Assembly: GCA_022562855.1 (NCBI GenBank)
Contig: JADFON010000041.1
Coordinates: forward strand, 1-10,235
Direction of reading: 5' to 3'
DNA: 10,235 bases
Source of the DNA: Candidatus Zhuqueibacterota bacterium
GTDB taxonomy: Bacteria > SM23-31
The stretch's first letter is position 1. Each line of letters starts with the position of its first letter. Below the pieces are notes generated by a model. That model was not told the origin of the DNA and made no database searches. It saw nothing but the letters and a program-made list of their open reading frames with translations. Both the position numbers and the translations under genes were made by a program. Positions 140-7,375 of this stretch are shown one piece after another.

Positions 140-583
140 TTATCCTTTTACCACCCATAACTTGATCTTTGTTTCCACATTTTGGTGCAGTTTTATCGTT
201 ACGGGGTAAATTCCGAGAGCCTTGACCGGTTCATCAAGCGATATGACTTTTTTATCGATTTCAAAACCTTTCTCCCGCAAAAGATCGGAGATATTCTGGT
301 TGGTTACCGTTCCAAAAATCCGGTCATCCTCCCCGACGGTAACAGTGGCAGTCACGGAAACTTTCTCAAGTTTCTTTGCCAATTCCTCCGAATCCAGCTG
401 CACACGTTTACCTTGCATAAGCGTCTGTATTTGTTCTTCTTCGAGGATTTTTTTGTTTCCTTTGGTAAGAGGAAGAACAATCTGCTGAGGGATCAAAAAA
501 TTCCGGGCAAATCCCGGCTTTACATCAACCACATCACCGGATTGACCCAGTGATTCATAGTCTTTTCGTAAAAGTACTTTCAT
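140..583 (-). CDS. rplI: 50S ribosomal protein L9 (bL9)
   Basis: Large-subunit ribosomal protein that binds 23S rRNA near the L1 stalk and helps maintain reading frame. The 147 residues match the usual bL9 length. The N-terminal globular domain (about 1-50) carries the family signature: MKVLLRKDYESLGQSGDVV followed by VKPGFARNFLIP. A long connecting helix (about 42-75, rich in K, E and Q) leads to the C-terminal domain (about 80-147), which contains FGTVTNQNIS and GIYPVTIKLH. The ATG start is preceded by only a weak purine stretch (GAGA). It is the last gene of the rpsF-ssb-rpsR-rplI block, 63 bases after rpsR. I see no terminator after it. Identification is secure. Confidence 0.97.
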   Translation of the reverse strand: MKVLLRKDYESLGQSGDVVDVKPGFARNFLIPQQIVLPLTKGNKKILEEEQIQTLMQGKRVQLDSEELAKKLEKVSVTATVTVGEDDRIFGTVTNQNISDLLREKGFEIDKKVISLDEPVKALGIYPVTIKLHQNVETKIKLWVVKG

Positions 584-646: not shown

Positions 647-877
647 TCAGCGGGCAATATCTGAAACATAGGGTATTATTGCCATTTGACGGGCACGTTT
701 TATAGCTCTTACCAGCATACGCTGATGCTTGGCACAGGTGCCGGATATTCTTTTCGGGATTATTTTTCCCTGCTCGGATGTAAATCGTGAAAGTTTTTTT
801 TCATCTTTGTAATCTATGAAAAATTCCTTGTTCTCACAGAATCTACATATCCGTTTAATCGGTTTTAGTTTTAACAC
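647..877 (-). CDS. rpsR: 30S ribosomal protein S18 (bS18), zinc-binding form
   Basis: Small-subunit protein that forms a heterodimer with bS6 on the 16S rRNA platform. At 76 residues it is normal length. Family signatures are visible: [11 protein letters not shown] (19-29), [11 protein letters not shown] (37-47) and the basic [14 protein letters not shown] (58-71). It carries Cys11, Cys14, Cys48 and His51 (CRFC and CAKH), the CxxC/CxxH set of the zinc-ribbon (C+) class of S18, so I infer that it binds zinc. The start is GTG, supported by an AGAGAGGA ribosome binding site 7 bases upstream. It follows ssb after 40 bases and precedes rplI. Confidence 0.97.
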
Positions 878-917: not shown

Positions 918-1484
918 CTATAAATTAAGATCCCGCATTCCGGGATAATCTTTGTTAATCTCGTCAGGTTTATCAGGGCTATCGGGTTGGTCGAACCCCT
1001 TTTCGTCATCCGGATTCAATTCCGAAGGACCTGCCGCAAGTGGTGTGGAGCCGGAATAGGGATCGGTAAAAGAAGCGTCTTCTTCCATAATGTGCTCTGA
1101 ATCCGTTTGATCCTTTTCCACGATAATTTCGGTATTTGACTTTTTGTTCAAAAACTGAATCCTTTTTGCCTTGATTTCAACTATGTTGCGGTAAAATCCG
1201 TTCTCGAGTTTCCAACTTTTACTTTGCAATTCGCCTTCAACCATAATCGCACAACCCTTTGTCAGGTTTTCGTAACAACTCTCGGCGAGTTTGTACCAGG
1301 CTACTATTCCTACATAACAGACATCCTCGCGCCAATTGCCGGAATTATCTTTAAAATTTCGGCTGTAGGCGATTGGGAAGTTAGCCACAGGCGTACCGTT
1401 TGTTGTGGTTCGAAGCGTTGGGTCTTTGGTAAGATTTCCTGCAATTGTGATTGAGTTAATATCCGGCATTTTTAAGTCAGCCAT
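918..1484 (-). CDS. ssb: Single-stranded DNA-binding protein with non-canonical C-terminal tip
   Basis: Binds and protects single-stranded DNA during replication, repair and recombination; usually a homotetramer. The OB-fold spans about residues 8-113: INSITIAGNLTKDPTLR at the front, then NFPIAYSRNFKD, VAWYKLAESCYENLTKG and MVEGELQSKSWK. A 75-residue acidic, proline-rich linker follows. Most bacterial SSBs end in a DDDIPF-like tip that recruits partner proteins. This one ends YPGMRDLNL, and no nearby frame restores the canonical tip. The ATG at 1484 has AGAGGA 7 bases upstream; the next Met (residue 6) has no such site. It sits between rpsF (196 bases away) and rpsR (40 bases), its common position in bacteria. 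Acidic linkers are common; the tip is the oddity. Confidence 0.95.
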   Translation of the reverse strand: MADLKMPDINSITIAGNLTKDPTLRTTTNGTPVANFPIAYSRNFKDNSGNWREDVCYVGIVAWYKLAESCYENLTKGCAIMVEGELQSKSWKLENGFYRNIVEIKAKRIQFLNKKSNTEIIVEKDQTDSEHIMEEDASFTDPYSGSTPLAAGPSELNPDDEKGFDQPDSPDKPDEINKDYPGMRDLNL

Positions 1485-1680: not shown

Positions 1681-2604
1681 TTATTCTTTTTCCTTGTTAT
1701 CCGGGCTGTCATCCTCCGGCTTTTCTTTGCTTTCGTCTTCTTTTTCATCAGATTCGGCAATGCTGTCAGTATTCTCTTCGCCGGAACTATCCACTTCAGG
1801 CTCCGGTTCAGAATCATTGTCCGCTTTCTCCGGTTCCGGAACATCCCCATCAACCGCTTCTTCCTGCCCGGTTTGTTCTTCCTTTTGCGGAACGGTCTCA
1901 TCACTCTCAGTCTCTGAAACTGATTCAGAATCTTCACTATCATCTGATTCCGCTTGCTTAACCGGTGCAGGTTCATCATCCTGATCATCGTCGGAAGCCA
2001 CACTTTCTGACGGCGAATCATCCTTGTCATCAGTGGATTCCTCAACCGGATCTGATTCTTCCTTCGTCGGTTCCTCTGTTGTAGGTTCTTCAGCAGGAGT
2101 TTCTTCTTTTGAATCGGATGTGGCGGAATCGTCTGCCGTTGTTTTCTCCGGCTCGGGTTCAGATGTAGATTTATCCCCGGCAGGAGTCGCCGAATCAGTT
2201 TGCCCGGCTTTTACATCGTCCGAAGATTCGTCTTCTGATTTTTGCGCTTCTTCTTCCTGCTCCGCGATTTTGAGCTTAGCTTCTTCTTCTTTTCGCATTT
2301 GCTCTGCTAAAATGGCTTTCTTGTCCTTATAAATCGTCATAAACCGGAGAATATGTTCATTAAGACGGTATTCTCTTTCGAGCTCCACAATAGTTTCAGG
2401 AGGAGCCTCAAAATTAAAAATAATGTAAAAACCGTATTGGAATTTCTTGATAGGATAGGCAAGTCTTCTCTTGCCCCAATGTACCGTTTCTCCGAGTTTC
2501 CCTTTTTGCTTTTTGATTATGTCTTCACTGCGAGAAACAATACGGTTAACGGTCTCTTCGTTCAGTGATGAGTTAACTATTATAATGGATTCGTAAACTT
2601 TCAT
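1681..2604 (-). CDS. rpsF: 30S ribosomal protein S6 (bS6) with ~190-residue acidic extension
   Basis: Small-subunit protein that pairs with bS18 on the platform. Residues 1 to about 100 are an ordinary bS6 domain: MKVYESIIIV, ETVHWGKRRLAYPIKKFQYG, FNFEAPPETIVELEREYRLN, ILRFMTIYKDKK. A charged helix (about 101-122) leads to a disordered tail to residue 307. From 121 on I count 75 Asp/Glu in 187 residues, 15 Lys, and no Arg, His, Cys or aromatic residue; the rest is mainly Ser, Thr, Pro, Ala. Typical bS6 is 95-140 residues. In E. coli, RimK adds glutamates to the S6 C-terminus; here acidity is encoded in the gene. The ATG has GGAG 5 bases upstream. The frame is continuous from domain to tail, and the opposite-strand ORFs are Ser-rich shadows of the tail. 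Confidence 0.95.
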   Translation of the reverse strand: MKVYESIIIVNSSLNEETVNRIVSRSEDIIKKQKGKLGETVHWGKRRLAYPIKKFQYGFYIIFNFEAPPETIVELEREYRLNEHILRFMTIYKDKKAILAEQMRKEEEAKLKIAEQEEEAQKSEDESSDDVKAGQTDSATPAGDKSTSEPEPEKTTADDSATSDSKEETPAEEPTTEEPTKEESDPVEESTDDKDDSPSESVASDDDQDDEPAPVKQAESDDSEDSESVSETESDETVPQKEEQTGQEEAVDGDVPEPEKADNDSEPEPEVDSSGEENTDSIAESDEKEDESKEKPEDDSPDNKEKE

Positions 2605-2681: not shown

Positions 2682-4670
2682 TTAATTGCTTATTTCATTT
2701 AATATAGGAGCTATAACGAGTGAAACGACAGCTGTCAATTTGATGAGGATGTTCATCGATGGACCTGAGGTATCTTTGAACGGGTCACCGACAGTATCCC
2801 CGGTAACAGCAGCTTTATGCGCATCGCTTCCCTTCCCTCCAAGGTTGCCTTCCTCAATGTATTTCTTGGCATTATCCCATGCCCCGCCGCCGTTAGCCAT
2901 AAACAATGCAAGAAGAACCCCGCTCAGCGTAGCGCCTGCCAGCATACCCCCAAGCGATTCTTTCCCCATCAGGAATCCAACCAATATAGGCACAATAAAT
3001 GCCGTCATTCCAGGAAGAATCATTTCTCTGAGCGCCGCTTTTGTGCTGATATCAACGCATCTTGCCGAATCTGGTTTTGTGGTTCCTTCCATAATTCCCG
3101 GGATTTCTCTGAACTGACGCCTAACTTCTTCCACCATTTTCTGTGCAGCCCTGCCGACAGCCGACATTGTAGTCGAGGCTATAAAGAACGGGAGAATTCC
3201 ACCTATAAACAACCCTATGACAACCATATGATCGGTAAGGTTTATAACCGTTACACCTGCCGCTACCGTGTAAGCAGAAAAAAGAGCAAGGGCTGTAAGG
3301 GCAGCCGAACCGATCGCAAATCCTTTCCCCATTGCCGCGGTTGTATTCCCAAGCGAGTCGAGACTGTCTGTAATTTTCCGGACTCTCTCTCCCAGTCCAG
3401 CCATTTCGGTGATGCCGCCTGCGTTATCTGCAATAGGACCATAAGCGTCGACCGACATTGTGATACCAACGGTGGCAAGCATGCCTACTGCGGCGATTCC
3501 TATACCGTAAAGACCGGCAAACATGTGTCCAAAGTAGATCGCACCACATATACAAAGAACTGAGAGCACAACGCTTTCCATACCAACAGCCAGCCCGGCA
3601 ATGATATTTGTCGCAGGTCCGGTCAAACTTGCTTCTGCAATTTTCCTTATAGGTTTACCGGAAGTATAATATTCTGTAAATAATCCAATGAGAATACCCG
3701 CTAACGATCCAGAAACAATAGCCCAGATCGTCCTGCCGGGAAGCCCCAGGAAGGTTATTGCCCAATAGGATAGTACCATCATAAGTATCGCAGAAAATAT
3801 TGTGGAATACCGTAAGATAGCCGCCGGATCGAGATTTCTAAGGAATCGCACCGAAAAAATACCCAATAGGGAAGTACCCAAACCAATAATCGTGACGAGT
3901 ATCGGTAGAAACATCCAGTTTAACGAATTCTCCGATATGGCATATCCAAGCGCAATTGTCGCGATAACGGATCCGACATAAGATTCGAAAATATCTGCAC
4001 CCATTCCCGCAACATCCCCGACATTATCCCCGACATTATCGGCAATGGTAGCCGGGTTACGCGGATCGTCTTCGGGTATTCCCGCTTCGAGTTTTCCGAC
4101 AAGATCAGCCCCTACATCGGCAGCCTTAGTAAATATGCCCCCTCCAACACGGGCAAACAGCGCTATTGAGCTTGCACCCATTGCAAAACCATTAATGGAT
4201 TGAATATCGATATACCCGTATTTATAAATTAAAAACATACTCCCGAATCCGATCAAACCGAGACTTGCCACCGAAAGTCCCATTACCGCGCCACCGCTAA
4301 ACGCAGCCTGCAGCGCCATTCCCTGTCCATGCTTGTTAGCAGCCTCGGATGTTCTCACGTTCGCAAGTGTCGCCGCCTGCATTCCGAAGATACCGCAAAG
4401 CATAGAACACAGGGTGCCGGATAAGAACGCGAAACTTGTCGCTTTAAACGGCATAAAAGCAAAAAGCAAAACAAAAACCACTACTATAAAAATGGACAAA
4501 ATGGTATACTCGCGTTTGAGAAAAACCATTGCTCCTTCATGTATTCTGTCAGACAGTTCCTGCATCAAATCCGAACCCGCAGGTAGTTTTTTAACAGAAA
4601 CGTAAATAATAACCGCTACCAGCAATCCAAAGATACCTGCTACAGGAGCAAATATCATAACATTATCCAT
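2682..4670 (-). CDS. hppA: Membrane-bound ion-translocating pyrophosphatase, K+-dependent type, probably Na+-pumping
   Basis: Integral membrane enzyme that couples hydrolysis of pyrophosphate to ion export. The 662 residues form many hydrophobic segments (about 16 expected in the family). Active-site motifs are intact: [11 protein letters not shown] (185-195), [19 protein letters not shown] (201-219), [12 protein letters not shown] (408-419) and [10 protein letters not shown] (624-633). [10 protein letters not shown] (441-450) has Ala and Gly at the two positions that mark K+-dependent enzymes (Lys and Thr in K+-independent ones). [13 protein letters not shown] places Glu229 three residues after Asp226, as in Na+-pumping family members; plant-type proton pumps have it about a turn later. 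Na+ as coupling ion is therefore an inference. The ATG has GGAGG 4 bases upstream. The 141-base gap to pth shows no clear promoter. It lies between pth and rpsF. Confidence 0.95.
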
Positions 4671-5404: not shown

Positions 5405-6085
5405 TCAGGGATGGCTTTCGCCACCGGGGGTTTCCTTGTCCGTTTCTTGCTGTCCTTCAGCCTTTGCCTCAGGAGAATCTCCTTCGGCAGCTTCAGCAGC
5501 CTCTTCCAGTTCTTCCTCTTCTTCGACTTCTTCGACATGAATTTTCGGAAGACTTACACTGGCAATCGAAACTTCATCCGGTGTCAAAATATTGATGTTG
5601 TCGAATGAAAGATCCTTGATATGAATGGAATCACCAAGATCTAATTCGGATACATCAACTTCCAATTTGTCCGGCAGATTTTTTGGGAGACATTCTATTT
5701 CGATTTCTCTGGTCAAATGTTCAAGAATGCCGCCTATTTTTGTGCCAACCGGTACACCGGATAGAAGCATGGGAACGAAAACTGTAATCTTAACCCCGCG
5801 GGTTATCCCCATAAAGTCAACATGTGTAATCGTTGTTGTTACGGGATCCCTTTGAACCTGCCGGATGACAGCTTCCTTTTTTGAACCGTCATCCAATTCG
5901 AGGGATATCAAGGCAGGTTTCGAGGCAATAGTAATGCTTACCTGTTTTGCCTCAAGAGTGAGGGGTACAGATTCTTCTCCGTGAATATAAAATATTCCCG
6001 GAATTTTACCTTCCCGCCGGAGTACTTTCGAATACTCTTTACCGGTCATCTTCCGTATCTTTGCAACTATTGTGTTTTCCGACAT
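5405..6085 (-). CDS. rplY: 50S ribosomal protein L25, general stress (CTC/TL5) type
   Basis: Binds 5S rRNA in the large subunit. At 226 residues it is the long two-domain CTC/TL5 form, not the short E. coli L25. The N-terminal 5S-binding domain (about 1-92) has RKMTGKEYSKVLRREGKIPG, then AVIRQVQRDPVTTTITHVDF. The C-terminal beta-rich domain (about 93-183) has VPVGTKIGGILEHLTREIEI and LPDKLEVDVSELDLGDSIHI. Residues 184-226 are an acidic tail (VEEVEEEEELEEAAEAAEG onward) ending GGESHP; acidic tails of this kind are common in CTC proteins. The ATG has an AGGTGA site about 5 bases upstream. It follows prs after 220 bases and precedes pth by 17, the widespread prs-rplY-pth order. Confidence 0.96.
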   Translation of the reverse strand: MSENTIVAKIRKMTGKEYSKVLRREGKIPGIFYIHGEESVPLTLEAKQVSITIASKPALISLELDDGSKKEAVIRQVQRDPVTTTITHVDFMGITRGVKITVFVPMLLSGVPVGTKIGGILEHLTREIEIECLPKNLPDKLEVDVSELDLGDSIHIKDLSFDNINILTPDEVSIASVSLPKIHVEEVEEEEELEEAAEAAEGDSPEAKAEGQQETDKETPGGESHP

Positions 6086-7250: not shown

Positions 7251-7303
7251 AGTGCCGAATTTGCTCCATTAAAACTAATCAAATATCAATAATTATATTT
7301 CTG

Positions 7304-7375
7304 CTGGGGCGGGAGGATTCGAACCTCCGTATGCAGGGTCCAAAACCCTGTGTCTTACCACTTGACGACGCCCCA
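7304..7375 (-). tRNA. tRNA-Gln (anticodon TTG)
   Basis: A 72-base cloverleaf on the minus strand. The acceptor stem is TGGGGCG with CGCCCCA. The anticodon arm is CAGGG, loop TTTTGGA, CCCTG, giving anticodon TTG (plus positions 7341-7343). The T arm is GGAGG, loop TTCGAAT, CCTCC. The discriminator base is G, as expected for tRNA-Gln. The bases after it read CAG, so the 3' CCA is not encoded and must be added by CCA-adding enzyme. It lies just upstream of prs on the same strand and may share its transcript. Confidence 0.95.

Follow-up and report, generated by a model that had tools for sequence, protein, structure and literature searches.

The rpsF gene in the stretch of DNA analysed here (the window, 10,235 bases) encodes a ribosomal protein bS6 of 307 amino acids that ends in a long acidic tail, and this tail is real and gene-encoded, as the initial annotation had observed. 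We tentatively prefer to see in it the expanded C-terminus of a true bS6, a disordered polyanion of about 180-190 residues, which may tune RNA binding by the S6:S18 pair and the surface charge of the ribosome.

Genomic context of rpsF

The window is a complete contig of a metagenome-assembled genome of 2.5 Mb (80% complete, 491 contigs), and the phylum was sampled with six species genomes, this one among them. The genes prs, rplY, pth, hppA, rpsF, ssb, rpsR, and rplI follow each other on the minus strand in an operon-like order; prs and pth are presumed names, given by reading the sequence with no profile match behind them. The order rpsF-ssb-rpsR-rplI is also that of the relatives' locus L006 and, up to the end of its contig, of L005. 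The features relevant here are the following:

1681..2604, minus strand: rpsF, bS6 of 307 amino acids, a single open frame including the tail (open reading frame list, Pfam, TIGR00166)
2332..2595, minus strand: Ribosomal_S6 domain, residues 4-91 (Pfam, E 1.5e-28; pLDDT 95-98)
2245..2328, minus strand: mixed-charge Lys/Glu linker, residues 93-120 (alignment to relatives; structure model)
1684..2244, minus strand: acidic, aromatic-free, low-complexity tail, residues 121-307, net charge -60 (composition; predicted disorder from about residue 131)
918..1484, minus strand: ssb, the gene after rpsF in the operon (Pfam, gap comparison)
647..877, minus strand: rpsR, bS18, basic (net +13), assembly partner of bS6 (Pfam Ribosomal_S18; charge)
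140..583, minus strand: rplI, bL9 (Pfam)

Several further observations were made on this locus. The gene hppA (2682-4670), encoding a membrane H+ pyrophosphatase, separates pth from rpsF, whereas in class relatives pth lies directly before rpsF, and a tRNA-Gln (ttg) is located at 7303-7375 on the minus strand upstream of prs. The usual SSB tip is DDxPF; the operon SSB ends with YPGMRDLNL (918-984), and the SSB proteins of relatives end with GYEDLKL, GYDDLKL, and GYDDLKI. Genome G001 encodes one SSB with a DDLPF end (L069) and G005 a second SSB (L070), which was only partly read; a second SSB was searched for in the genome of the window and not found. Protein bL25 (5405-6085) ends in a short acidic tail (EEVEEEEELEEAAEAAEGD...), as it does in class relatives; acidic C-terminal tails on L25 are common.

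Identity of bS6 and composition of its tail

The N-terminal part of the protein is clearly an S6 domain, with 99.2 bits to PF01250 Ribosomal_S6 (Pfam cut-off 27; residues 4-91) and 87.4 bits to the S6 equivalog TIGR00166 (cut-off 42.9; residues 1-94). It shows 35-36% identity to the class relatives L005 and L006. This rpsF is the only bS6 gene in the window and the only S6 found in its genome; a contig scan for S6 returned only a single distant S6. By alignment, residues 93-120 correspond to the short tails of the class relatives, and the tail under study begins at residue 121.

Residues 121-307 (187 amino acids) contain 42 Glu, 33 Asp, 28 Ser, 17 Pro, 15 Thr, and 15 Lys. The initial annotation had counted 75 Asp/Glu against 15 Lys and had noted the lack of Arg, His, Cys, Phe, Tyr, and Trp; our recount agrees and adds Leu and Met to the missing types, which makes eight. 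Its tail coordinates, 1681-2244, take in the stop codon. Acidic runs do not exceed three residues and Glu runs two. Other proteins of the window contain 11.4% Asp/Glu, at which rate at least 75 of 187 residues would be acidic with a probability of ~1e-23. When the bases of the tail were shuffled, none of 5000 sequences stayed open, and Asp/Glu reached at most 18% as compared to 40% observed. The full-length protein has a mass of 34.5 kDa and residues 1-120 of 14.3 kDa; the tail thus enlarges the protein about 2.4-fold by mass, less than the threefold increase first proposed, and has more residues than the rest of the protein.

An acidic proteome, as found in a salt-in halophile, could produce such a composition, and the SSB linker and the L25 tail of the same window are indeed acidic. 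However, the neighbouring proteins are not: isoelectric points are 7.1 for Prs, 9.4 for Pth, 8.7 for bL9, and 7.9 for the S6 domain, which is near neutral. Furthermore, electronegative clusters are reported to be underrepresented in halophiles (PMC8348266). An acidic proteome was therefore rejected on account of the neighbours, and salt adaptation of the tail is very improbable.

The tail is genuine coding sequence

The S6 proteins of relatives in the same class stop at 132-136 amino acids and the source is a draft assembly of many contigs; hence, the loss of a stop codon, a frameshift, or an assembly error might have joined S6 to non-coding or foreign sequence. Codon usage argues against this. 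The synonymous codon score of the tail is +0.047 per codon, within the range of the real neighbours (0.002 to 0.066), whereas 2000 random synonymous versions of the tail scored -0.077 +/- 0.029 and 0.027 at most; the codon choice of the tail is more than 4 standard deviations closer to the neighbours than these. Ratios of GAA/GAG (0.74/0.26 in the tail, 0.75/0.25 in the neighbours) and GAT/GAC (0.73/0.27 and 0.70/0.30) are similar, and codon usage and GC content by codon position agree with the coding sequence of the genome. Antisense and shifted open frames appear to be shadow frames produced by GAN and TCN codons.

Gene order and spacing lead to the same result. The order rplY-pth-...-rpsF-ssb-rpsR is shared with relatives, and the gap between rpsF and ssb comprises 196 bases in the window as compared to 82 and 84 in G005 and G004. 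Because this gap is longer here than in the relatives, the tail is added sequence and not a used-up spacer. Read-through and frameshift were thus ruled out by codon usage, synteny, and the longer downstream gap. The frameshift or assembly error at the junction, which the initial annotation had named as grounds for refuting the tail, was not found, and the frame is continuous with the S6 domain, as it had claimed. An artefact is hardly credible as the origin of the tail.

The tail is predicted to be disordered

In a charge-hydropathy analysis, the S6 domain plots as folded and residues 121-307 lie far inside the disordered zone (H 0.29, boundary 0.53). AlphaFold2 was run with an alignment of 41 bS6 proteins from the window and other loci, in which no homologue spans the tail. 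The model has the order of the S6 fold with a pLDDT of 95-98 for residues 1-120, one long helix at residues 95-130 in the linker region, and coil with a pLDDT of 44-59 for residues 131-307. The tail is almost certainly disordered from about residue 131, judging by predictions in which low pLDDT is consistent with disorder and short of proof. By two predictors, the window bS6 carries an acidic disordered segment beside an RNA-binding domain, a feature of RNA-binding proteins with an electronegative cluster.

Class relatives lack the tail

In two genomes of the same class, G005 and G004, rpsF is flanked by the same genes except hppA and encodes S6 proteins of 132 and 136 amino acids with a mixed Lys/Glu end. 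In a third, G003, the contig starts a short way before ssb; the C-terminal fragment at this edge is rich in Lys, ends with KSKEKE, and is by its position the end of S6. The window S6 ends with NKEKE. Since the S6 ends of these three class relatives (that of G003 as a fragment) are short and Lys-rich or of mixed charge, the tail is a lineage-specific expansion, young at class level. No S6 was seen in the incomplete assemblies of the same family, G001 (76% complete) and G002 (63%), and no close relative carrying the tail was found among the genomes surveyed.

Two possible sources of the additional sequence were rejected. The window tail contains no tandem repeats, which rules out a recent tandem expansion. 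A tail borrowed from another protein found no match at E 10 in the six genomes of the phylum, nor in the PDB, both searches being weakened by low complexity.

Acidic bS6 tails recur across bacteria

The initial annotation had suggested a comparison of C-terminal length and Asp/Glu content among bS6 homologues; carried out across the bacterial domain (386 genomes, S6 found in 375), it identified the window bS6 as the extreme of a series with recurring milder cases. The window bS6 is the longest of the 375; four frames could hold 307 residues, and only that of the window does. The typical range of 95-140 residues assumed at the outset proved too narrow, many surveyed bS6 proteins having 150-250 amino acids; PDB chains of E. 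coli-type S6 entries have up to 135. The window bS6 also reaches more than 20 amino acids beyond the E. coli end, by which terminal extensions were defined (PMC9534751). The next longest proteins, of 285 amino acids, are from the sister species G247 and G374, and their neutral C-terminus is conserved between both. This segment (DGSHNIDEERYELQKYSNKLRSVAIEKNLPKKLQEVNLRDLTKKELIEYMRKVRAALAK; L078, L079), found in small genomes, is possibly folded.

Of the 90 S6 tails that were read completely, that of the window is the longest (214 amino acids past the domain) and the most negative (-63). Other acidic, aromatic-poor tails are those of G319 (167 amino acids, net -60), G298 (129, -46), G011 (127, -44), G149 (93, -39), and G185 (-32); they belong to different families, apart from G298 and G011, which share one. 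Tails of G319, G040, and G037 are built of repeats. Acidic S6 ends have arisen repeatedly, since acidic tails occur in different families and several consist of obvious repeats. Extensions of S6 and other ribosomal proteins are widespread in bacteria and scattered without being clade-specific, and their disruption alters fitness in Mycoplasma pneumoniae (PMC9534751). With acidic tails found again and again in unrelated families, and with extensions of S6 already reported to be common, the window tail is an extreme case of a known, recurrent kind and no new system.

These data bear on near-neutral drift, which is the main rival to a shielding function: the exposed C-terminus of S6 would tolerate low-complexity growth, and acidic tails would be kept since basic or hydrophobic ones are harmful on the ribosome, with no specific job for the tail. 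Sharp shifts of tail length and charge among related lineages (short and Lys-rich in G003-G005), visibly repeat-built tails elsewhere, and the scattered distribution of extensions are as expected from drift. However, the lack of tandem repeats does not fit a fresh slippage product, the strict absence of eight residue types from all 187 positions points to a maintained composition, and a highly expressed polyanion of 20 kDa would presumably be costly. Drift is possible, if rather unlikely.

The survey also revealed three natural fusions of bS6 and bS18 in three different families, at L023:1309-2070 (G194), L050:399-959 (G245), and L102:297-938 (G038). Each is one open frame matching both Ribosomal_S6 and Ribosomal_S18 (Pfam); in L023, rplI follows directly. 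A narrow literature search found no mention of such fusions.

Relation of the tail to RimK

Of the two clear RimK-family members in the genome of the window, the first is LysX (331 bits, cut-off 275.6). The second is a RimK-like ligase (L064:1450-2358), a gene for which the initial annotation had proposed to check; it scores 237 for the family (cut-off 143.4) and 278.8 bits for the S6-ligase equivalog, below the cut-off of 331, and its best PDB match is S6--L-glutamate ligase (4e-73). It adjoins genes which by reading we take to be succinylglutamate desuccinylase/aspartoacylase-like. Within the phylum, an S6-ligase-like gene was found only in the family of the window.

Presence of RimK was compared in 68 genomes whose bS6 tail had been read, of which 33 had an acidic tail (net charge of -13 or lower) and 35 another (-3 or higher); one weak match with two stops was left out. 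RimK was present in 4 of the 33 and in 3 of the 35 (Fisher p 0.7). Because of this similar frequency, the encoded tail seems neither to replace RimK nor to depend on it, and a role as RimK substitute was rejected.

The tail might still be an encoded counterpart of RimK modification that permanently provides the same negative charge and alters translation of certain mRNAs. Protein, end, and charge are all the same, glutamylation of S6 by RimK shifts the proteome of Pseudomonas (PMC4741518), and the C-terminal residue of the tail is Glu, possible for a RimK substrate. Against this stand the RimK-like gene in the same genome, the missing link between acidic tails and RimK absence in the 68 genomes, and Glu runs of at most two, unlike the contiguous poly-Glu recognised by RimB (PMC11957791). 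Hence, of the suggestion that the polyanion acts like RimK-added glutamates, the encoded polyanion is genuine and the replacement of RimK is not borne out; we consider a RimK counterpart quite unlikely.

Possible function of the tail

Returning to a polyanion that tunes RNA binding by S6:S18 and ribosome surface charge, two stages can be envisaged. S6 and S18 pair as a heterodimer before binding rRNA (PMC4647458). At this stage the tail would cover basic surfaces of S6 and of its strongly basic partner S18 (net +13) in competition with non-cognate RNA, and it may sharpen RNA binding and keep the heterodimer soluble, as acidic tails of Hfq and Nop15 do. The electronegative cluster of Nop15 lowers nonspecific RNA binding and spares specific binding (PMC8348266), and the acidic Hfq tail acts likewise, competing with RNA that binds loosely and sparing the specific target (PMC5606850); we propose, by analogy, a shielding of S6:S18 before assembly. 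Tailed S6 is probably incorporated into the ribosome. On the 30S platform the tail would, as its position and charge suggest, stay mobile and add a negatively charged cloud, comparable to the poly-Glu attached to S6 by RimK but encoded and larger. It might also recruit or repel partners, as the initial annotation had suggested.

Against shielding, class relatives manage without the tail, with an S6 end of opposite or mixed charge, and doubling of the Nop15 cluster led to an about tenfold loss of affinity (PMC8348266); so long a tail could by analogy weaken specific binding too. An autoregulatory rpsF_leader RNA was rejected as a specific ligand: no Rfam match was obtained upstream of rpsF at E 5, and the upstream fold is not unusual.

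A wider idea is that several lineages have independently hard-wired a polyanion on the 30S platform via bS6, an encoded RimK counterpart controlling the electrostatics of the ribosome, the choice of mRNA, or the assembly of S6:S18, with the window bS6 as the largest case seen, beside a RimK-like enzyme that could extend the tail. This we regard as unlikely, if conceivable.

Comparison with known systems

Protein bS6 is among the few ribosomal proteins with a C-terminus regulated by added negative charge. Proteins that encode this charge themselves, from mild to extreme, form a natural series for testing charge on the platform, and they show that ribosome surfaces vary more among bacteria than one would expect from model species.

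The bS6 proteins of E. coli and Pseudomonas, polyglutamylated by RimK, share with the window bS6 a negative C-terminal tail; theirs is post-translational and pure Glu, whereas that of the window is encoded, mixed (Asp, Glu, Ser, Pro, Thr, and Lys), and 187 residues long. The bS6 of M. pneumoniae (215 amino acids, PDB 7ooc; PMC9534751) likewise extends C-terminally from a normal S6 domain, and residues 1-167, with part of the extension, were built in density; in comparison, the window tail has more residues, is much more acidic, and is free of aromatic residues. The C-terminal domain of Hfq and the Nop15 cluster (PMC5606850, PMC8348266) share the acidic disordered segment next to a compact RNA-binding domain, but the window tail is much longer and belongs to a structural ribosomal protein, and its shielding function is a proposal. 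The acidic bS6 tails of the survey (G319, G298, G011, G149, and G185) are also gene-encoded, acidic, and aromatic-poor; they are shorter, several are repeat-built, and they occur in other families.
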